From assembly GCA_963681505.1 (NCBI GenBank), contig OY811975.1, positions 6,811,490 through 6,875,489 on the forward strand: 64,000 bases of DNA. Reading direction: 5' to 3'. The number at the start of each line of letters is the position of its first letter. Position 1 is the first letter of the stretch. This document shows positions 2,446-22,589 of this stretch, piece after piece. The position numbers were made by a program, and so were the translations under genes. The DNA is from Eunapius fragilis (taxonomy: Eukaryota > Porifera > Demospongiae > Spongillida > Spongillidae). The notes beneath the pieces are model-generated. The model saw only the letters and a list, made by a program, of their open reading frames with translations. It was not told the DNA's origin and did not search any database.

Positions 2446-5400
2446 TTGCAAGTTTCCCTACAGCAGCTTAATTTTCATCAGCAGCTGCCGAATTCAACTT
2501 TGCAGCTGTCTACACCGCCATCACAGTCTTCCCCTCCAAACCTATCAGCTGTAGTACAGCCTCCATTACCCATACCTCCTCCCTTAGCGCCAGAGCTTCC
2601 ATGCCCATCTGGTCATGAATCTCTCTCCCAATTCACTCTGCTACCATCTATACGCAGTTCTGTTGCGCAGCCTGCAGGAGGGAGGAAACAGTGTTCTGTT
2701 TCTGGGTGTTTGGATTTAGTTGCACCTACCATGTGGCACCACCATATGGATAGCCACTTGAAGGGAATTCTTCCTGGTGCTGTTCCTGACGCATGGCTTT
2801 TGGAACATGGTTTATCTGTGTGCCACTCCTGTATTAAGCTAGTTTCAACCTCACACCTTGTTTCTCATCAACAAAAGTGTGTTCCAGCAATTTCCATCTC
2901 AGTTCCACCCCCATCTGATACCTCTGCTGATTTGCCCTCCTTAGAGGAGGTGTGTAGCCTTAGGTGCCCAACAATTCGATTTGTGCCCAACAAAGCAAAG
3001 CCTGCCTTTGCACGGGTATTCTCAGCTGCTCTCATGGCTGTCATCTTTGAAAATTCAGTTTCAGCTTGGTTAAGACTGTTCATGCTGCCTAAGTGTGTTC
3101 TCCCCAGTGCAAAACGTGGTGGGCGTCACAACAAGCCTGTTCCCATTGAGTCACTATGTGCAATGTGGGCAGATGGTAAAATAAGTGATCTGTGGCACAA
3201 GGCAGTTTCTCGCTTTTCATGTCCAAAACAGCCTTCAGTGCCAAAAGGTGACACAGTTAAGAAGAGGGTGAGCTCAGCAATATCATTATCTCAGGATGGT
3301 CTCTTTGGTAAGGCTTGTCAAGTTCTTGTGTCACCTGGAGTAGCACCTAATAATGCTGAAACTTGGAGTCTTTTAGTTTCCAAACATCCTGAGTGTGCCT
3401 GTCCTTCTGTTCCCACCTTGCCATTGGGGGGTATTAATATCCCGCCTGATTGGCGATCCTTATGTCTTTCCCAAAGTTGACAGCAGCAGGACCTTCTGGT
3501 TTACGCATCCAACACATCATAGATGCATCAGAGGTGCCTCAACAGATACACATCCTCCAGCCACTAAGGGGTGTCATCAACCTTCTTGCTGCTGGCAGAG
3601 CTCCACCTGAGGTGTCCACTTTCCTTGCTGGGGGCAGTTTGACAGCTCTTAACAAGTCAAAATCTGGCAGCATCTTTGATATTCGTCCTATTGCTGTAGG
3701 AGAAAGCTTACGCCGTTTGGTGGGTAAATGTCTTTGTGCTGCAGTTAAGACAAAGGCAGCAGAGTTCTTCAAACCATTTCAGTTTGGTGTCGCTTGTTCT
3801 TTTGGAGCAGAAAAGATCGCACATGGTTTGAGAGCATGTATTGAGAACCACTGGCTTGATGTTGATTTTGTTGTTCTAAAGGTGGACATGAAGAACGCTT
3901 TCAACATGGTCTCACGTCAGGCTCTGCTCTCTGAATGTAGCACTCACTTCCCTGAGCTGCTTCCATGGGCCAGTTGGTGTTATAGCCAGAGTCCCATCCT
4001 GTGGCACCGATTGGTTGCCTGCGTTCAGAGCAAGGGGTTCAACAAGGTGACCCTCTAGGCCCTCTGTTTTTCTCCCTGGTTCTGAACATCCTGGTTTCAA
4101 AAATCACATCCAGTGGAGTTTGTGCAGACTTGTCCTACCATGCCTGATATCTGGATGATGGTGTGTTAGCAGGTCCCAGATCAGCGGTTCTCAGAGCCCT
4201 CACCATTATTCAGGATCAAGGACCTTCTCTGGGTCTCATCATAAACATACCTAAATTTGAGATCTTCAGCCGTAGTGACATCAGCTCATTTCCACCAGCT
4301 ATGAAAGGATCCAACTGTCCCAATTTGGTTATTCTGGGCATTCCCATTGGTGACCAAGCATTCTGTTCTGCCTTTATTTCAGGGAAGCATGGGGAGGCTA
4401 AAGCTCTGTTGCTGTAACTTGAAGAAGTTGGATCAGAAGTTGGATCAGTTGATCCACATGTGGCATTTTCACTCCTTTGGCAGTGTGCAGGTTTCTGCAA
4501 GATGGCTCACCTTGCCCGTGGTACTCCACCCTCCCAAGCTATGTCAGCCCTTAAGGCCTTTGATCTTGACATACGCAGTTGCTTCTCATGTTGCACTGCT
4601 GTTGACACCTCTGATCAGGCCTGGCAGCAGGCAGAGCTCGGTTTGAGTAGGGGTGGCCTTGCTTTACGCTCTATTTCTCGTCACTCACCAGCAGCGTATA
4701 TTGCATCCCTGAGCTCATCTGGTTTTAGTACGTCTTCTCAACAACACCTTAAACATGCAGTCTATAGAGGCATTCAACTCCTTTGTTCCAACTTCTGATG
4801 CAGTCTGTGTAGAGGATGTGTTGACATCACCCTTACATCAAAAGATGCTATCCACAAAAGTGGACAACCACCTTTTCAATCTGCTCCTGGGGAACTCCTC
4901 CCCCGCAGATAGAGCTCGCCTGCTTTCAGTCTCCTCCCCACATGCTGCCTCTTGGATCTCAGTTATTCCTTCTGAGGGGCTTGGCCTCCATCTGGAGCCG
5001 TCTGAATTTCAGGTAGCCATCAAGTGGTGGCTGGGTCTTGACACCTCTAGTGGTGCTATGTGTGCTCTGTGTCCAGGGAGTGTGCTCGATCCCCTAGGCC
5101 ATCACGCTCTCACCTGCAAGCGAGGTGGTGATGTTGTCTCCCATCACAATAAACTCTGAGACACCCTAGCGGAGGCCTGTCACAGGGCCCACTTGAGTGT
5201 TAAGGTGGAGGCAGGATGCAACCTCACCCTTGACCATAGCCACTCCCGCCCAGCTGACATCCTGGTACCCAACTGGTCTGTGGGCAAGCCAGCGGCCTTT
5301 GATCTATCTGTGACCTCACCGCTCAATTTAAACGTTTTGTTGGAAGCGGGACTCACAGCTGGTGCAGCCGCCAGAGCTACAGAGCTGAGAAAGCATGAGG

Positions 5401-11773: not shown

Positions 11774-11946
11774 TGTGGGAGATTAAACATTAAAAATGTA
11801 GGTTGTTTTGCACTGTGTCTATCTGGGTGTTGTCCAGGCTCTACTGCATCTTTGGTTTGATCAGTCTCATAGAAATGAACCATACAGCTATTGTTCCCAA
11901 GTAAGGAAGTACTTCATACATATTTAAAAAAATATTTACTTTCTGG

Positions 11947-12092
11947 TGTCGGAAGATATATTGTCACCCTGTAAAAAGTGCCCCCCCCGGACAATTCATT
12001 CTAGGATATAATGTCCCCTCCCTGGTTATATTGTCCCCCCTACCCGGACAATACACCCTAGCTAGGGTACATTGCCCCCCCCCCCCCCCCCT
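11947..12092 (+). repeat. Left terminal inverted repeat of the Ginger element
   Basis: Begins TGTCGGAAGATATATTG and continues as imperfect units of GGACAAT..ACCCTAGG..TATATTGTCC type, themselves mirror-symmetric, ending in a C-run (12,075-12,091). It matches the inverse of 21,583-21,758, which holds about two more units. Confidence 0.85.
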
Positions 12093-12374
12093 CCCTAACA
12101 TTTAAAACACCTGCTACGGTCGACAATGGCTAAAATAAGGTCTATTCATAGCCAATTTCCAGTGATCGTACATGTATAGCGGTATATAAATAAACCACAT
12201 TACATAAGGCTATAAAATAGAAATGGTTAACATGCACGTGACCCCAAAAATTAAAACTCCAGCCTCGTGTAGAGAAATGGTTGACTATAAGGCTATTCAG
12301 GAATTCTTGAACTATGGTAGTTAGTTATTCTGTAGGATATTCCAAAGACCAAAAGCGTTATTAAGAAGGAAAGC

Positions 12375-12528
12375 GACGCTTAACTTTCAAGTTAAATCTG
12401 GAGTTCTTTATTATTCTGTCTCTTCGGTTTCGACCATAGAACGGCGATGGAGAAGGGTTATACCAACAGGGGATGAGCGCCATCGCATCATGAAAAGCTG
12501 TCACGCATCTGCTGAAGGTACGCATGGT
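12375..12528 (+). pseudogene. Ginger integrase exon: zinc-binding N-terminal part
   Basis: Frame reading FKVKSGVLYYSV, then RRVIPTGDERHRIMKSCHAS, then GTHG, followed by the donor GTGAGT at 12,529. The order (substrate-like LYY, VIP, ERxRIMxxCH, GTHG) is that of the start of the His/Cys zinc-binding domain in Ginger and KRBA2-type integrases. The rest of that domain (GRD..YWPGM, CxxC) should follow in the next exon, but I could not find it in 12,529-12,640. The exon start is approximate. Confidence 0.55.
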
Positions 12529-12654
12529 GAGTACAAAATGACTACTAAACACAGAGAAACTCTTTTTCACAATATAAGCTATAGTCAATGTTTGGTTTTA
12601 GAGTACATTGTATGGTTAATCTTTAAATTGTAACTATGTAGTGCACGCTGCAAG

Positions 12655-15358
12655 TTAGCATAACTATGTTCATAGTTCCCCAAAATTTGCAAAAACTGAT
12701 GCTGCTCTCCATCATGTTGCAGTGGAATCTAAAGTCTGGATTCAGGTAGGTTGTGTTCACTTGTTTTTCAACCGTGCATCTGCGTGCATGTGTTTCTCTC
12801 CTTGTTCCCTAAAGTGTCATTTCAATAAGTGAAGCTGGTTGTAGACCAATTACTCCCAGTATATCTCGTGTATTATCTTATAATACTTAGTAGTCTTCAA
12901 TGGCATGATAAATTTGAATCATAATTTTGCATATCTCACACATCCATGGCTATATATTACTCACACTCATCCACCTATTCTTGTAAATACATGCTATGCT
13001 ATTCGGAATAATAAAGATGATTTTAAAACAATCCTCACCCTTTGATGCACCATGCAATGTTGTGTTGCCAAAAATTTATTTAATCACGTACGCAAAATCT
13101 ATACAAACAATGAGGTATATAAAGCTATTGAAATGGCTAAGTGTTATGCTCACCTTTTGAATCCTCATAATTTGAAGGCATTAATTTATTTCACCCACAA
13201 AATTCACTAAAAAGAATATTTCAGAAACTATGATATGTTTTATTACAGGTTATTGACTTGATTGGCCCCCTTCCCTAAACTTCGTCGCGCAACAAGTATA
13301 TAATATCTCTGATGGACCACTTTTCAAAATGGCCAGAGGCTGAGCCTTTGAAGGACAAGACATCATACGGTGTAGCCACTTTCCTTTACAGGATGATTTG
13401 CAGGTACAATGTAATATAATATTTACATGCTTGTGTGAAAGAAGTAAGATGATATGTTGCTGATATATTTTATATATTTTTGTTTGCCTTGTTATTAGGT
13501 AAGTTGTGTAATTTGGTAGCATTGTTTCAGTGGCTTGAAAGTACAGGGTGTCCCACAATCAAGGAAAAGTCGATAAAAATTCAACACATTCCATGTAATT
13601 ACATTACATTAGTGGGTATTGATTATAAATAACCAGTTTCAATAGGGACAAATGCTGATCATATTGAATGCATGTTTACACTAATGGTTCAACAGAAAAA
13701 TATGTACATGTAACTATAAAAACTACTCATAATCAAGTGCCCGAAAATCAAAAGTTTGACTCTTAATAACTCCGCAGTAGAATAAGTTATTTAACTTTTG
13801 GTCATACATCAAGCCAAATAATCAGCTTGTCATTAGTTATTATAACTAGAATATGGGTAGTCATCTGTTCTTAACTGATTGGTTTGAATTTAAATATCAA
13901 ATAGCTTGATTTAACTTAGTGAAACTTAATATGCTTGTGATTGAGCAATTTTCACCTATAAAATACTTGCTCTCATTAAATTTTCAAAGTTATTATAACA
14001 TAAATTAGTAAATCAATCTTAGTTATGATTTTAAATATATTTAAAAACGATTTTTTTCTTGATTGCAGAACACCCTGTATATTGTGCTATAAAAATGTGC
14101 ACATTGTTGCCTTGGTAACAAGGTTCAATGAACGGCAATTATTTTTATACAATTTTGTATTCTTTATCCCATTTTTATGCAGACATGGAGCTCCCAAATC
14201 AAGCCTTAGTGATCAAGGGAGGAAATTTGTTAACAGCACAATTCAGACCCTGTTTCATCTAACAGGAATCAAGCACAAGGTGACATTTGCTTATCACCCT
14301 CAATGCAACGGCTTGGTGGAGCGATACAACCAGACACTTCAGCGATCATTGCTGAACCTTGTAAGTGACAAACATAATGATTGGGACATGTTTCTTGATG
14401 GGGTGCTGTTTGCCTATCGAACATCGGAACACAAATAAACTGGTGTTATGCCATTCGAGCTAATTTTCTGCAGGTATGTAGATTTAAGGAGGCGATAAGC
14501 AATCACTGTGACAAGATTATTTTAATCATTTAGGAAAGCAGTTCTCCCTATTGAGGATGAAATAAATTCAAAAAGTAAGAGCAGCAGCAATGAAGTTAAA
14601 GAAATGGTAGAAGGATCCCCGAAACTGGAGGAAATGATTGCTAGAATGGAACAAATTCAGCAACAACTGTTTGAATCAGCAAAATAAACATTGACAAAGC
14701 ACAGGACCGCTACAAACGAGATTATGACATTAAGCATCTAAAGAAAGGCAAATCAAGCTGCATTTTACTAAGATTCTTTTATTGTTGTGATTAGCATGTT
14801 TTATCCGTTTCAAAATAATTCAAGTTGGACAGCTGGTCCTGTTACGCAACTCTCAAAAAGATGGTAGAAAAGGTGGCAAGCTGCAACAGAGATGGCTTGG
14901 CCCACCATACAAAGTAGCTGAATCTCTTGGAAAAGGAAGATATGTGCTCTTCAATCCTAAGACTAAATCAAACCTCAAGAAAACAATCAATTTTAACAGG
15001 CTTAAATTATACCTCCGACGAAGATTTGTGCACAAGAGCGGACACAAGACTTCCAGAATTGCCAAAAGGTTAATCTACAAAGGAAAATCAGCTGATATAA
15101 GCTCAGACATGGAAAAGATAAGTGATGCAAAGGAGGGAGACATACCAGGAAAGTTTGTTCATCTAGCAGACTCAAGCGCAGACATAGAAGGTCATGGAAA
15201 GAAGCAGGGTGTAGTGCATCCTTTGTCAAAGAAGAAAAAGGTAACAAATGACTTCTACAACACGCCACAGCATTCCAGTCAACCTTTGCCCGTTCACTCC
15301 AGTCAGTCTACACCACAGCAATCCAGTCAGTCTACACCACAGCATTCCAGTCAGTCTA
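12655..15358 (+). pseudogene. Ginger integrase: DD35E core, GPY/F-type domain and Ser/Gln-rich tail, in several exons
   Basis: The integrase cuts and joins transposon ends to target DNA. Exons read by eye: about 12,655-12,745 (KFAKTDAALHH..WIQ); 13,249-13,403 (first catalytic Asp in VIDLIGPLP, then MDHFSKWPEAEPL); 14,183-14,473 (second Asp in SLSDQGRKF, Glu in GLVERYNQTL); 14,534 to about 14,750 (coiled segment); and about 14,835-15,358 (GQLVLLRNS, KLQQRWLGPPYKVAESLGKG, then a SSQSTPQ repeat tail). Thirty-five residues separate the second Asp from the Glu. Splice phases agree: TGC AG at 13,403 joins A at 14,183, and TGC AG at 14,473 joins G at 14,534. RWLGPPYKV is the GPY/F-like module. A stop after GPLP and another in the third exon show decay. 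The tail is interrupted at 15,358 by the LTR element and resumes at 19,952 with CACCACAGCATTCCAGTC, the same Ser/Gln repeat. A domesticated KRBA2-like gene is the main alternative. Confidence 0.75.
13544..14077. mobile_element. 534-bp mariner-like MITE in the Ginger intron
   Basis: Flanked by TA on both sides (13,542-13,543 and 14,078-14,079). Left end CAGGGTGTCCCACAATCAAG, right end the inverse of CAGGGTGTTCTGCAATCAAG. CAGGGTGT ends and TA duplication are typical of mariner-type elements. No coding capacity. It lies wholly inside the integrase intron 13,404-14,182. Confidence 0.8.
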
Positions 15359-15578
15359 TGTTTAGATAGGTTGTTTTGGGAACTGTGCATGCGCGATGAG
15401 GGTGTGCACTCTTATTGAGGATATAGCCGCAAGGCGTGTATGCTCTGTTGGGAACTGCGCATGCGCGATGAGGGTGTGCACTCTTATTGAGGGATATAGC
15501 CGCATGGCGTGTATGCTCTGGAGGTTGTATTTGGCAGTTGTGATTAGTCAGTTCCTTGGTGTAGCGGCACTCGTAACA
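15359..15578 (+). repeat. 5' LTR (220 bp) with an internal tandem duplication
   Basis: TG..CA ends. About 72 bp (GGGAACTG..TATGCTCTG) is present twice in tandem here and once in the 3' LTR, which explains the length difference between the two. Confidence 0.9.
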
Positions 15579-18500
15579 TGGTGTCAGAAGTGGCTTCTCT
15601 CTAACTGTTAAAAGGGCGGAGAGAAATGGAGAAATATTTAGTTCCAGACCAAGTGGGCGAGGGAGACATAATGGATCAGTGGCTACGTTTCAAGAAGGAA
15701 TTGGCACTATTCTTGACGGCACTGGGAAAGGATAAGGCTGAGTCAGCGGTGCAGTTGGCCATGTTTTTGCATGTAGTGGGTCCACGAATCAATGACATGT
15801 ATGAAGTGATGACGTTCACTGAGGGAGAAGACAAGGGATTTGATGGAGTCATGACAAAGCTGGACTCACTATGCGCTCGAAGAACCAGTAAGCACGTACT
15901 CAGAGATAAGTTCTTTCAGCTGAAACAGGCAGGTCGTTCGGTAGATAAGTTTGTGTCCGAACTGCGTAAACAAGTCAAGGATTGTGACTTTGGGAACCTG
16001 AAAGAAGATTTGATGTTGCATGTATTGATCAGGGGCATTGATAGTGAGCGCATGAGAAGAAGACTGTGCGAGACAGCCAAACTGGATTTAGCAAAAGCCA
16101 TTCAGATGTGCCAAACTATGGAGGCGATGACTGCGGATCTACAGAGCTGGGAAAGGGAGACCAAAGAACTACTAGAACAGGTAGCAGCTGTTAAGGGCTT
16201 TGAACACCAAGAAGAGGATGAGGTTGCCATGGTTAGGAAAAGGGGTGAACCTAGGAAGGGTGTGTCAGTTCGCGGTAAGGAGTCTATGGCTGAAAGTATT
16301 GAATCAGATCGGAGCCAGAAGGAGGACCTGGAATGTTAGAAGTGCGGAAGGTGTCATCGTCCGAGACAATGTCCAGCGTTTGGGCAAAAGTGTCTCAAGT
16401 GCAATGGTTTTAATCACTTTGCAAGAAAGTGTAAGGTGAGAAGCAGACCAACCCAGTTGATGCAAGAGTTGGAACCAGAGAAACTACTAACAGGTCAAGG
16501 TGGAGAAAAAGGGCAAAAAATTGCTAGCGAGGTTTTGGTGTGAGGCAGGTGGCAAACGCCTAGAGTTGACCTTCCAACTGGATACTGCTGCCTCTTGCAA
16601 TGTACTGTCACTTCCAGACTATGTGCAGTTAGGCAGCCCAAAGTTAAGAGACAGCGGGATACTATTGTCCATGTATGATGGGTCAGTAAAGCGATCGCTG
16701 GGTCAGTGTCTAGTAGTGGTGAAAGACAGGGAAGGCAAGAGTTAGCAGCTGGTGTTCGAGGTGTTGAAGACAAGGCATCACGCCTTACTATCCTTAGACA
16801 CCTGTTTACAGTTGGAGCTAATCTCATATAGGTCGGAGAGAGTGAATCTGGTTTCTGAGCATAGTATCCTAACAATGGAGACAGTTCTGTTAGAATTTGG
16901 AGATGTTTTCAGTGGAGTAGGGTGCCTACCAGAAGAGTATCATATAGACCTAGATCTAGCTGTTCCACCAATGCTTAACAGACCAAGGAAGATACCTCAT
17001 ACCATGCGAGCAGCTGTGGAGGACAAACTCAGAGTTCTGGAGGAGAATGGAATAATTGCCACTGTGGACCAGCCAACAGAGTGGATTAGCAACATCACCA
17101 CAGTATGGAAACATGATAAGAAGTCTGTTCGTGTTTGTTTGGACCCTCGGGATCTGAATAAAGCTATCCGACGGAACCACTTTCATAGGCCTACCATAGA
17201 CGATGTACTACCCCAGTTGAAGGGAGCAAGAGTGTTCAGTCTACTTGATGCCAAGGATGGCTTCCTGCAAGTAAAGTTGAGTGAGAGCAGTAGCTTTTTG
17301 ACAACCTTTTGGAGTGCAGGGCACAAGTATCGCTGGGTCAGAATGCCATTTGGCATCTCATCCGCTCCAGAAGAGTTTCAGCGAAGGCTTCAGGATGCAC
17401 TGCACGGGCTGGAAGGTGTAGCAGTTGTCGCAGATGATGCCCTAGTGTATGGAACGGGCAAGCAGATGCAACGGCCAGACAGGACCACGATCAGAGGCTG
17501 CTCAAGCTGCTTCAACGGGCTTGAGAGGTCAATCTAAAGTTTAATAAGGACAAGATGCGCCTGCACCAGACAGAATTGCTATACATTGGACATCAAATCT
17601 CGACGCAGGGAGTTAAACCCAATACGGCAAAAGTAATGGCAGTGAAAAACGTGCCCATACCAAAGACTGTCCAAGAAGTGTGCCGATTCCTTGGAATGGC
17701 GAATTACCTGTCAAGGTTTATACCAAACCTGTCACAAGTGGCAGAGCCGCTGAGGTGTCTAATAGAAAGAGATGCTGAATTTGTGTGGGGAACCTTGGAA
17801 CAGGCAGCCTTTGAAGAGATGAAGACCCTGATCAGTAACGACCAGCTACTAGCGTTCTATGACGTTCACAAACCCATTGTGATTCAGTGTGATGCCAGCA
17901 CTGAGGGGCTTGGAGCCACCTTGTTGCAGGATGGGCGGCCTGTAGCATCAGTGTCACGATCGTTAACGAGTGAAAAAAATTATGTTGCCTTAGAGCTGGA
18001 GTGTCTAGCTATATAGTCTTTGCCTGCCAGCGACTGAATCAGTACATCTATGGAAAGAGAGTAAGAATTGAGACGGACCACAAACCTTTAGAGATGATTG
18101 CCAAGAAGTCCATCTTAGTAGCACCTAGATGACTACAGAGAATGCTGTTACAGTTGCAACGTTACGATCTTGATGTGGTGTATCTACGTGGAAAACTACA
18201 AGTGGTGGCTGATGTGCTGTCCAGAGCTCCAGTGGGACACCCAGTGGGAAACGAGGGGGGAAAAGCAGGATGTTTTTCAACTTGAAGATCAGGAGATGGA
18301 GAACACCAAGGAACGAGAGTTTGTTTGAGTTAGTGACCAGAGAATGGAGACTATTAAAGGAGCAGCACAAAGTGATCCAGAACAATGTAGCCTGAAACAT
18401 GTCATTGTTCAAGGATGGCCGTCCACCATTTCACAGGTGCCCTCACCATCCAGACCCTACTGGAATGTTTGAGACTGTATCACAGTCCAAGATGGGATTA

Positions 18501-19797
18501 TCCATAAGGGGGGACAGATTGTTGTTCCCACAGAACTGAGAGGCCAGATTCTACAAAGACTGCATGCAAGTCATCAAGGTATAGAATCAATGTTGAGAAG
18601 AGCAAGGGACTCGGTTTATTGGCCTGGGATGACAGAAGATGTAAAAAGAGTGTGCTCTCAATGCAGCATTTGTGAAATGGACTCCCCAGCACTGCCGAAG
18701 GAGAAGCACTTGGCACTCAGCATTTCTCAGAAACCGTGGGAAAAAGTTGGAGTGGACCTGTTCAGATTTAAGGGCAAGGACTACCTACTTATTGTAGACT
18801 ATCTGACGGACTACTTTGAGATATCTAATCTCAAATGACAGTGGCCAGGGTAGTGGTGGATGCCATTAAAGAACAGTTCGCACGATATGGAATACCAGTT
18901 GTAGTGCAAACAGATGGGACCCCCAGTTCATAGCCTGGGAGTTCACGGACTTTGCAAAGAGCTGGGGATTCCAACACACTATGTTGTCACCCTATAATAG
19001 TCAGTCCAATGGAAAGGCTGAATCAGCTGTGAAGATTGCAAAACGGTTGCTGAGAAGTAAAGACCCCTTTTGGACTCTACTGGAATGGCGTAACATACCT
19101 ACTGTAGGATTAGATGCAAGCCCAAGCCAACGGTTCCTGGCACGGAGAACTAGGGGGGGCCATCCCTATGGCAACTAACAAGCTGTTGCCTGAGGTACAG
19201 AAGAACATGCAGAATAAGAAAATACACCGGCAGGAAGTAATCCACAATCGGGTGAACTCCTGTAGAGATCACCTACCACTGCAAGTGGGGCAACCAGTAT
19301 TGGTCCAAGACATGTTGGCCAGGAAGACGCAGTGGAATCACGGAATATGTGTCGACTGGCTGTCTGACAGATCCTACATAATAGACGTGGATGGCTGGAT
19401 CCTGCGAAGAAACAGGAAGTTTCTGAAGCCATCATGCAATGTCCCACGAGTAGAAACTCCTTCCTATGAGCAAGAGCCGGAGGTCCCAGCAACGAAGATG
19501 GGTACGGCAGAACCACCTGCACCCAATACTGAAGACCAAAATCAAACGTCAGGACAGGAACTACACGAACTACCCAGAGGAAATGAAGGACAAGCCGAAG
19601 TACCTAAACCACCAAAGGTGCAGGATCAGGGGAGAGAACCGCAAGTTGAAGAGCATCTAGTACCAAGGGATGTTGTTGCAAAAGGGTATCAAACAAGGTC
19701 TGGACGAGTGATTAGTGAACCATCACGATATCGAGACTTCAGGAAGTTCTAGGGAGAACACTTATTTACTTATTGTAACGGGGGGGGGGGGGGGGGA

Positions 19798-19945
19798 TGT
19801 TTAGATGGGTTGTTTTGGGAACTGCGCATGCACGGTGAGGGTGTGCACTCTTATTGGGGGATATAGCAGCACGGCGTGTATGCTCTGGAGGTTGTATTTG
19901 GCAGTTGTGATTAGTCAGTTCCTTGGTGTAGCTGCACTCGTAACA
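19798..19945 (+). repeat. 3' LTR (148 bp)
   Basis: Begins TGTTTAGATGGGTTG directly after a G-run and ends GCACTCGTAACA, followed by AGTCTA, the copy of the hexamer before the 5' LTR. Confidence 0.9.
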
Positions 19946-20639
19946 AGTCTACACCACAGCATTCCAGTCAACTGTCAACAATTAACTCCAGTCAGTCCTT
20001 ACCTAAGAGTCCTCATCAGTCCTCATCACATTTGTCAAAAGTGATCAGTTTAACTATATCTTCAGATTCCGGCTGTCCATCAAACATTATTCAGGTTCCT
20101 CTTTCTTGCAATGATAATGAAACAGAATGCTCAGTGTGCTTCAAATGGAAGAAATAAACTGCAGCATACTTTTGGAACAACTTCATTCTTCTCACCTTTT
20201 GCGTTTGTGGAGGACAGGAGCCTGTGTACTTCATTACAAAGCTGCAGAACACGATGAAGAATTTGATGAAAGTGTCAATGAATTTGATTTAAGTGTCAAT
20301 GATTACAAATTGCATGCAGTTGAATTATTTATACAATTTCACACAGAAAAGGCTGAAGGAGGGTGAATATGCATTGAGCAAGGACATCGTAGTTTGCTTA
20401 TGGCTAGAGTACAGAAGTTTGAGTGGCAGTACTCCACTGAGAGTTGTTTCGGGAGGTGACTTTGTGATCGTTAATGAAGAATTGCACGAGGAGTTTGATG
20501 AGTTTAGAAGCAAAGTGTATGCATATGTGGATAAAGAATACAGCATTGTTGAAGCTGTGGAACTGCTTTAGGTTTGGTGTAGAGCAAGTAAGGTAATTCT
20601 ATGCAGAGTTAAATTGCTTGGAAGGTGATATTTTCTAAT

Positions 20640-21346
20640 GTCTTCAAAACGTCTGGATGAATTCTGTGAGTGGGTTCATGATAAAAGGCGCTTGTGCTGT
20701 GATGAGGCGGAGTTTAGAGTGACAATGTTAACTGATCCTTGCATTGATTCCTCACATTCCAAATACAGTATGGATGCAATCACATACAACCCAGTATGTA
20801 GAGGTTGGCAAATATCCATGTGTAACTCATTTGGATTGAATTTTCATTATGGCAATAACTCTCATCATGGTGCAGCACGTAATGAAAATGATCGGGATTT
20901 CTCAAAACTGGAAGAATATCTGCAGATGGAAATTGCTTTTTTCGGTGCATTTCATTCATCATCACTGGATCACTAGACTACCATGAAGAATTGAGATTAC
21001 TAGTAACAACATACATGGCTCACAATTCATCAAATGACAAGCTATCGATCCTTCTTCCCCCAAACCTGTCAATGCAATCATATATTACACATTCAAAGAT
21101 GCAGTCACTTGGAGAGTGGGATACAGAAATTGAAATCACTGCAACTTCCTGCTTGCTGAACACAGCAATATGAGTGTTTTATACTGGAATGATTTTGAGT
21201 GGGTGCAATATTCTCCATGAAGCAAAGAGCGACACACATCAAGAAGAGCGTACCTACATTACCAATGTGAATAATCATTTTGAACCTGTCAAAAGGATGA
21301 TGTAGTGGAATTGATGTATTGTACTGTACGGAAGTCAATTTTAGCA
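20640..21346 (+). pseudogene. OTU-type cysteine protease remnant of the Ginger element
   Basis: OTU proteases remove ubiquitin-like modifiers; several transposon families carry them. From about 20,880 the plus strand reads LKTGRISADGNCFFR, holding the Asp-Gly-Asn-Cys catalytic box, then ITGSLDYHEELRLLVTTYM, then a GEWDTEIEITATSCLL block, and near 21,260 ITNVNNHFEPVKRM with the His-Phe of the active site. This is the usual OTU order over about 150 residues. The stretch is not in one frame: stops lie before the catalytic box and after CLLNTAI, with a shift around the WVQYSP-like piece near 21,210. Upstream frames at 20,127-20,571 and 20,640-20,900 (e.g. DEFCEWVHDKRR) probably belong to the same gene but carry no motif I recognise. 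Confidence 0.65.
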
Positions 21347-21582
21347 TGACATCAATTTATTTATTCCACAACTATAACTGACACGATTTTGAACAATCCA
21401 ATAGTCTCTGACCATGCACACCTACAGTGTAATTCATGCACTCATTGAATTTCATTTCTTTTGGATTAGTTGCTAATACGCTGTCCTGTTGAGAGGCAAG
21501 GTTTATTCTACTTACGTTTGAATCGATATATGCATGATACGTAATATATAATGGAATGTGCTATCGGAATTTTTAAATATTG

Positions 21583-21758
21583 GGGGACGATGTACCTTAT
21601 AGGGTGTATTGTCCTGGTAGGGGGACAGTATAACCAGGGAGGGGACATTATATCCTTGGGTGAATTGTCCGTGAGGGACAATATACCCTAGGTTACATTG
21701 TCCGGGGGACAATGCAACCTAGGTTATATTGTCTGGGGGGACAATATATACTACGACA
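21583..21758 (-). repeat. Right terminal inverted repeat of the Ginger element
   Basis: Read on the minus strand from 21,758 it begins TGTCGTAGTATATATTG and repeats the GGACAAT/ATTGTCC units of the left end, including the same CCCTCCCTGGTTATA stretch. Confidence 0.85.
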
Positions 21759-22589
21759 CCGGCATTATTGTAAGATGCAAACATGTAACAAAAGACTTCT
21801 ATCAATTTCCGTGCCAATCACAATTTCAAGATTACCTACTTCTTTAGAGAATGTAGCGTGTTAGAAAGGTACACTGCAAGATTTCCAATATATGCATAGA
21901 ATTGTTATTTTTCATCTCACAGGGTCTGAATTAATGTCATGGTTACATTATTACTCAATACCTGTACTACAGAGCATCATGCTGCCAAATTGTTATGAGC
22001 ACTATTCACTTTTGGTAGCCAGTATTCATATTCTATTGAATCAATTTCTAGTTCTGAACTACAGATAGCTGATGCTCTTTTCCATCAATTCTACATTGAA
22101 TATGAAAATATGATCTTTATGTGTGCATTACATTTTATGTGACTAAAGCAAGTTAATGCAATAGGTATTTCAGCTGTGGCAATGAATGTGCACCTTCTTA
22201 TAGCCACTTCATGTTTGCTTGCTTGGGGGCCTTCAGTTATGGACTGTGTCGTGTTTTGCCTTTGAAAGTCTAAATGGAGAACTGAGGAAACTTTTCCATG
22301 GCACAAACAGCAGAGGTATTATAATATTCTTAAGTCAATGAATTGAACTGACATTAGTTTACATTTGTATTACACAAATCGCTTATTTATACATTTACTT
22401 TGTCCCAGCTTATTCCAAAAGTAAAGTTATGTTCATATAATGCGGAGTAAGCCAGAATTATGTATACAATAGCTAAGAACCTGCATGAGATTGACTGTTG
22501 TAATTTGCCGACATTCAGTAAAAGTACCCAATGGACCTAGAAAATATCCTGGACCGATTGGAAAAACTAATTGAACAGAAGGTCAGCTT

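Follow-up and report, generated by a model that had tools for sequence, protein, structure and literature searches.

A decayed Ginger1 transposon in the sponge Eunapius fragilis, and evidence that its family was probably formed by exchange of a protease cassette

Positions 11947 to 21758 of a 64,000-nucleotide stretch of the Eunapius fragilis genome (contig 5:6811490-6875489, called here the window) are bounded by inverted ends and hold both integrase and OTU protease coding sequence. This arrangement raises the question of whether the locus is a single transposon and, if it is, where its protease came from. We find that the unit is a Ginger1 DNA transposon of 9,812 bp, a length that includes a nested Ty3 element; the outer element measures ~5.2 kb once the Ty3 element is subtracted. 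The fuller reading, that this is a decayed autonomous cut-and-paste element whose family was formed by protease cassette exchange, we regard as very probable. The features are as follows, with the basis of each in brackets where it was recorded.

11943-11946, no strand: left target site duplication, CTGG (sequence)
11947-12092, + strand: left terminal inverted repeat, TGTCGG... (sequence, end-copy comparison)
12277-12519, + strand: N-terminal exon remnant, MVDYKAIQEF... to CHASAEG, frameshifted, with the YPYY-like region and first half of the zinc finger (sequence, comparison with L025 and L031)
12683-12760, + strand: site lacking ~160 bp (second half of the zinc finger, kept in L025 and family B), with downstream remnant AKTDAALHHVAVESKVW
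13249-13403, + strand: integrase exon with the first catalytic Asp (VIDLIGPLP) and one in-frame stop (sequence; homologues in family B and L025)
14183-14473, + strand: integrase exon with the second Asp and the Glu (DD35E) and one in-frame stop
14534-14752, + strand: integrase exon remnant, core to GPY/F, end approximate (sequence, family B homologue)
14823-15013, + strand: GPY/F module, where similarity to family B stops
15265-15358, + strand: Ser/Gln-rich linker, like that of family C
15353-15358, no strand: 6-bp duplication AGTCTA, left of the nested Ty3 element (sequence)
15359-19945, + strand: nested LTR retrotransposon of Ty3 type, also interrupted by stops, with LTRs at 15359-15578 and 19798-19945
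19946-19951, no strand: 6-bp duplication AGTCTA, right of the nested Ty3 element (sequence)
19946-21299, + strand: remainder of the linker and OTU-coding region, 63% identical to family C and absent from family B
20892-21173, + strand: open frame of the OTU protease; the catalytic box is DGNC, with its Cys codon at 20934-20936 (Pfam OTU, 9.9e-8)
21583-21758, + strand: right terminal inverted repeat, ...CGACA, with mirror-symmetric ATTGTCC/GGACAAT units
21759-21762, no strand: right target site duplication, CCGG (sequence)

A sequence-only reading had placed inverted TGTCG ends and CTGG/CCGG flanks at these positions, and both are there. The two ends are 146 and 176 bp long and both start with TGTCG; their inverted similarity covers ~120 bp in the best block, in which 97 of 119 positions are identical. 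Ginger1 is defined by TGTNR ends, terminal inverted repeats of 40-270 bp, CCGG-type 4-bp duplications and an integrase with a GPY/F module (Bao et al. 2010, PMC2836005), and the window element has repeats in the ~40-270 bp range starting TGTNR and a 4-bp duplication of the CCGG or CCGT/ACGG type. Among 13 elements with both flanks readable, 12 carry perfect 4-bp duplications (CCGG in nine, ACGG, CCGT and CCGC in one each), the sole imperfect one being the window copy. This count omits L051-L054, L058 and L059, in which one or both flanks are unreadable; partial flanks are CCGG on the left of L053 and on the right of L054 and L059, and the 3' ends of L051 and L052 are abnormal.

The same reading had proposed searching the genome with both ends, and had judged a chance coincidence of the features unlikely. 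Across the 218,937,333 bases searched (24 contigs), at least 53 left and at least 65 right end matches were scored, as overlapping sets. The two ends pair around an integrase match at nine other fetched loci, eight with CCGG and one with ACGG duplications, all perfect, which excludes chance as the source of the arrangement. The pairing also runs against the first outcome named as refuting by the earlier reading, ends dispersed as a satellite unrelated to integrase genes. A site free of the insertion, which that reading proposed for comparison, exists for a sister copy. The joined flanks of L025 gave a continuous 82% match to a paralogous stretch of contig 5 with a single CAGG at the junction, an empty site, while a genome search with the joined flanks of the window copy matched only the two flanks themselves.

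The intron-split DD35E integrase expected from the earlier reading is present in exons at about 13249-13403 and 14183-14473, with approximate boundaries from splice sites read by eye. The D-to-E spacing is 35 residues, read from SDQG...NGLVE, and the core gave rve and rve_3 Pfam matches on single exons, below the curated cut-offs. The GPY/F-like module was likewise found; it contains a WLGPPYKV motif, is 75% identical to the family B module and matches Pfam SH3_Tf2-1 at E 5.5e-4, below the curated cut-off. A profile search bore out the OTU catalytic box, with a match above the cut-off and similarity extending to ~21299. The H2C2 zinc finger, matched by Pfam at 2.6e-17 in family B, is readable in L025 and has lost its second half in the window copy, and a candidate YPYY motif upstream of it, read by eye as SYPTGYSKD...VLYYS in family B and in part in L025, is frameshifted in the window copy. 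Two integrase exons and the OTU are interrupted by in-frame stops; with frameshifts and the loss of ~160 bp in addition, the outer gene is a pseudogene, a state that the earlier reading did not mention.

Nor did that reading mention the nested Ty3 element, which accounts for 4,587 of the 9,812 bp. It contains gag, reverse transcriptase, H2C2 and integrase pieces, and its LTRs align in two blocks (125/131 and 83/91). The reverse transcriptase of the unit is confined to this element, which L025 and L026 lack. The 5' LTR also has an internal tandem duplication of ~72 bp that is missing from the 3' LTR. The Ginger identity proposed earlier holds for the outer element, which has the Ginger1 features examined, but a later retrotransposon makes up almost half of the bounded unit, and the copy itself is dead.

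Two families share these ends. Family A comprises the window copy, L025 and L026, at ~88-93% nucleotide identity in the main blocks. L025 and L026 are decayed or partly deleted, and no intact copy was found among the three family A members with integrase; a fused integrase-OTU protein is accordingly a prediction, since it is read from broken copies. A search of solved-structure sequences with the OTU protein of family A (L059) returned one chain, 5jze, labelled RNA-dependent RNA polymerase, at E 0.0015.

Family B (L027-L033, seven copies fetched) has the ends and CCGG-type target of family A and an integrase block 81% identical to it, with Ulp1 and PHD domains in place of OTU. Pfam matches the PHD at E 2.2e-8 and the Ulp1 (C48) at E 4.7e-4, with 20.5 bits against a cut-off of 20.7; the best 30 solved-structure sequence matches of the Ulp1+PHD protein cover the PHD part only. 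L029, L031 and L032, on contigs 7, 9 and 12 with unrelated 300-bp flanks, show no substitutions over 5,235-5,236 aligned bp and differ by 1-4 gap columns. Substitution-free copies on three chromosomes point to very recent movement, and family B looks recently or currently mobile. In its linker, a block of a few dozen residues (…LSKKTRVMECTTEESGDWADPSLDNGKD…) is repeated several times in tandem (L031:2738-4420). L030 carries an extra left-type end in opposite orientation ~330 bp past its right end (L030:5232-5303), and at C18:2156793-2157183 two right ends like those of family A lie on the same strand, 227 bp apart.

Comparison of the families shows that family A is a mosaic. Nucleotide similarity to family B runs over window positions 11947-15013 in pieces, with gaps at introns, and resumes at 21556-21748. 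Between these, the linker and OTU (15265-15358 and 19946-21299) match family C, a distant Ginger-like family represented by L039/L060 and L041/L061, at 63% nucleotide identity. Families B and C have only a 161-bp integrase stretch in common. The ends, integrase and GPY/F module of family A thus go with the Ulp1 carriers, and its linker and OTU with family C. The ends of family C differ from those of A and B (TGTCACGC and TGTCGCGC), as do its 4-bp duplications: GACC and GATC were read in the two copies for which both flanks are known. Within families A-C, ends and target preference therefore follow the integrase and not the protease. By the NG86 method, dN/dS is ~0.22 for the OTU region of A (L059) against C (L039; dN 0.23, dS 1.06) and ~0.10 for the integrase block of A (L026) against B (L031; dN 0.10, dS 1.00). 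As dN lies well under dS in both, each region was long maintained as protein.

The phylogenies conflict in the same way. The integrase tree (21 rows, 159 columns, some rows short) was built from 28 extracted loci with the near-copies L027, L028, L066, L067, L068, L072, L076 and L078 omitted, and it places family A as sister to B inside a set of Ulp1 carriers (98/94, 97/95). The OTU tree (18 rows, 132 columns, some rows short; L082 and L084 omitted) places A as sister to C (98/99). Forcing the ten OTU rows into one integrase clade was rejected (p-AU 1.0e-5), as was forcing A together with the four C-type rows (p-AU 0.009). One OTU-linked locus below 50% identity, C1:12470864, combines a Ty3-like integrase and, downstream of it, another that is Ginger-like (L080); it enters the tree as two rows.

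Linkage was scored as a protease match within 9 kb downstream for 99 of the 150 scored integrase matches. At 75% identity or more, at least seven were linked to Ulp1, at least two to OTU and one was unlinked (L025, which holds a decayed OTU). The 25 matches at 60-74% identity comprised at least nine with Ulp1, none with OTU and 16 with neither; at 50-59%, at least four had Ulp1, none OTU and 43 neither; below 50%, one had Ulp1, six OTU (one later found misassigned) and ten neither, all among the matches listed. Overall, 70 of the 99 had no match of either type within 9 kb downstream, among the matches listed. The whole genome gave at least 150 OTU-like and at least 144 Ulp1-like matches. Because these totals are lower bounds, linkage to either protease is undercounted.

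The mosaic, the trees and the linkage agree, and exchange of a cassette lying between the GPY/F module and the 3' end is the simplest reading of them. Because A is nested among Ulp1 carriers, we infer that Ulp1 is ancestral in this set and that A gained OTU. The tree conflict would also be expected if a common ancestor had held both OTU and Ulp1 and each lineage had lost one, with no exchange. OTU would then have had to be lost separately in every Ulp1 lineage around A; none of the 99 integrase matches has both types within 9 kb downstream, among the matches listed, and the Ginger elements described by Bao et al. 2010 (PMC2836005) carry either one and not both, as do those here (OTU in A, Ulp1+PHD in B). 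We consider it improbable. Still less credit is due to the idea that family A took its OTU independently from the host or from another type of transposon and resembles C by coincidence. OTU domains do occur in other transposons such as Helitrons (Bao et al. 2010, PMC2836005), and OTU matches are numerous in this genome (at least 150, as above), but A and C are alike over ~1.4 kb of linker plus OTU, their OTUs are sisters, and among the 18 rows compared no host or Helitron OTU is closer to A than C is. That a fragment of Ty3 integrase and an OTU pseudogene happen to lie between unrelated repeats has next to no probability: an integrase-bearing Ty3 element does sit inside the unit and the ends also occur without integrase in shorter derivatives, but the nine other loci have the same ends around the outer-type integrase with perfect duplications, and L025 and L026, which keep the same order without Ty3, already contradict it.

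Under cassette exchange, an element of the family B lineage, targeting CCGG and carrying Ulp1 and PHD, would have had its segment from GPY/F to the 3' end replaced by linker and OTU from the family C lineage, with ends, integrase and target preference unchanged. The product of the resulting gene would have been an integrase-type transposase, made up of a zinc finger, a DD35E core and GPY/F, with an OTU cysteine protease at its C terminus. Homology, together with the duplications, suggests binding of this transposase to the long inverted ends, excision of the element and its joining to CCGG-type sites, where the cuts would be staggered by 4 bp. The OTU may strip ubiquitin off the transposase, or off local repair or chromatin proteins. 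The Ty3 element would later have landed in the linker of the window copy.

Ginger1 elements are already known. Bao et al. 2010 (PMC2836005) describe OTU and Ulp1 families from four animal species, sponges not among them; one of the families also has PHD. By published description, Ginger1-1, -2, -3 and -11_HM and Ginger1-1_AC, the OTU-bearing elements of Hydra and Aplysia, share with the window element TGTNR ends, long inverted repeats, CCGG/CCGT duplications, a DDE integrase with GPY/F, a C-terminal OTU and introns; the window element differs in its sponge host and in an integrase that groups with Ulp1 carriers of this genome. Ginger1-9_HM has the C-terminal Ulp1 and PHD pair of family B, where family A has OTU. 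Ty3/Gypsy integrases belong to the same enzyme family and share the GPY/F module and TG...CA ends, but the outer element has no reverse transcriptase or LTRs of its own, the nested Ty3 element being separate. Ginger2/Tdd, with an AT-rich RTATAY target and no GPY/F, was ruled out by the CCGG-type target and GPY/F module of the window element.

The available sections of Bao et al. 2010 (PMC2836005) contain no discussion of exchange of OTU and Ulp1 domains, and among the titles and opening abstract lines listed for a protease swap or for Ginger in sponges, no other paper on such an exchange appeared. We lean towards the general view that a ubiquitin/SUMO-protease cassette is swapped between distant lineages of Ginger1, with integrase, ends and target choice retained. 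If so, deubiquitinase and deSUMOylase modules would be interchangeable helpers of integrase-type transposition and not partners co-adapted to one integrase. The reason why Ginger transposases carry such proteases is only a suggestion in Bao et al. 2010 (PMC2836005), who proposed a role in host repair after transposition. The natural swap provides a matched pair with similar ends, target and integrase, A with OTU and B with Ulp1+PHD, which suggests that one protease can do the work of the other. Given its substitution-free copies, family B could serve for testing this interchangeability.

Shorter derivatives of ~1.5-1.7 kb (L051, L052, L053, L055, L056 and L057) have A/B ends and OTU-coding sequence and lack the integrase. 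A near-identical deletion junction is common to these six of the nine fetched derivatives, so they look like one deletion family. We considered whether they are carriers retained for their OTU and rejected this, as they look like one deletion family and have stops in several OTU frames. Duplications in the three derivatives with both flanks readable are CCGG, CCGT and CCGC. Over their first ~50 bases the six derivatives are almost identical to family B, which might therefore mobilise them.

The earlier reading also drew attention to mirror-symmetric units inside the ends. These are real, but they are few and unevenly supported against shuffled sequence. With 10-base arms and at most one mismatch, six ends contain one to three units each, compared with shuffle means of 0.04-0.14; two internal controls contain none and one, the latter reached by 38 of 500 shuffles. 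The strongest case is the right end of family B, whose three units were reached in 0 of 500 shuffles, and the weakest are the window left end (18/500) and the family C right end (35/500). Allowing two mismatches leaves a weak contrast with shuffles. That the transposase binds these units is a guess. The left end of family C has similar palindromes with TGTCC/GGACA cores. In family C, which extends from ~430 in L060 and to ~2448 in L041, palindromes on TGTCCGGCCGGACA echo the A/B mirror units.
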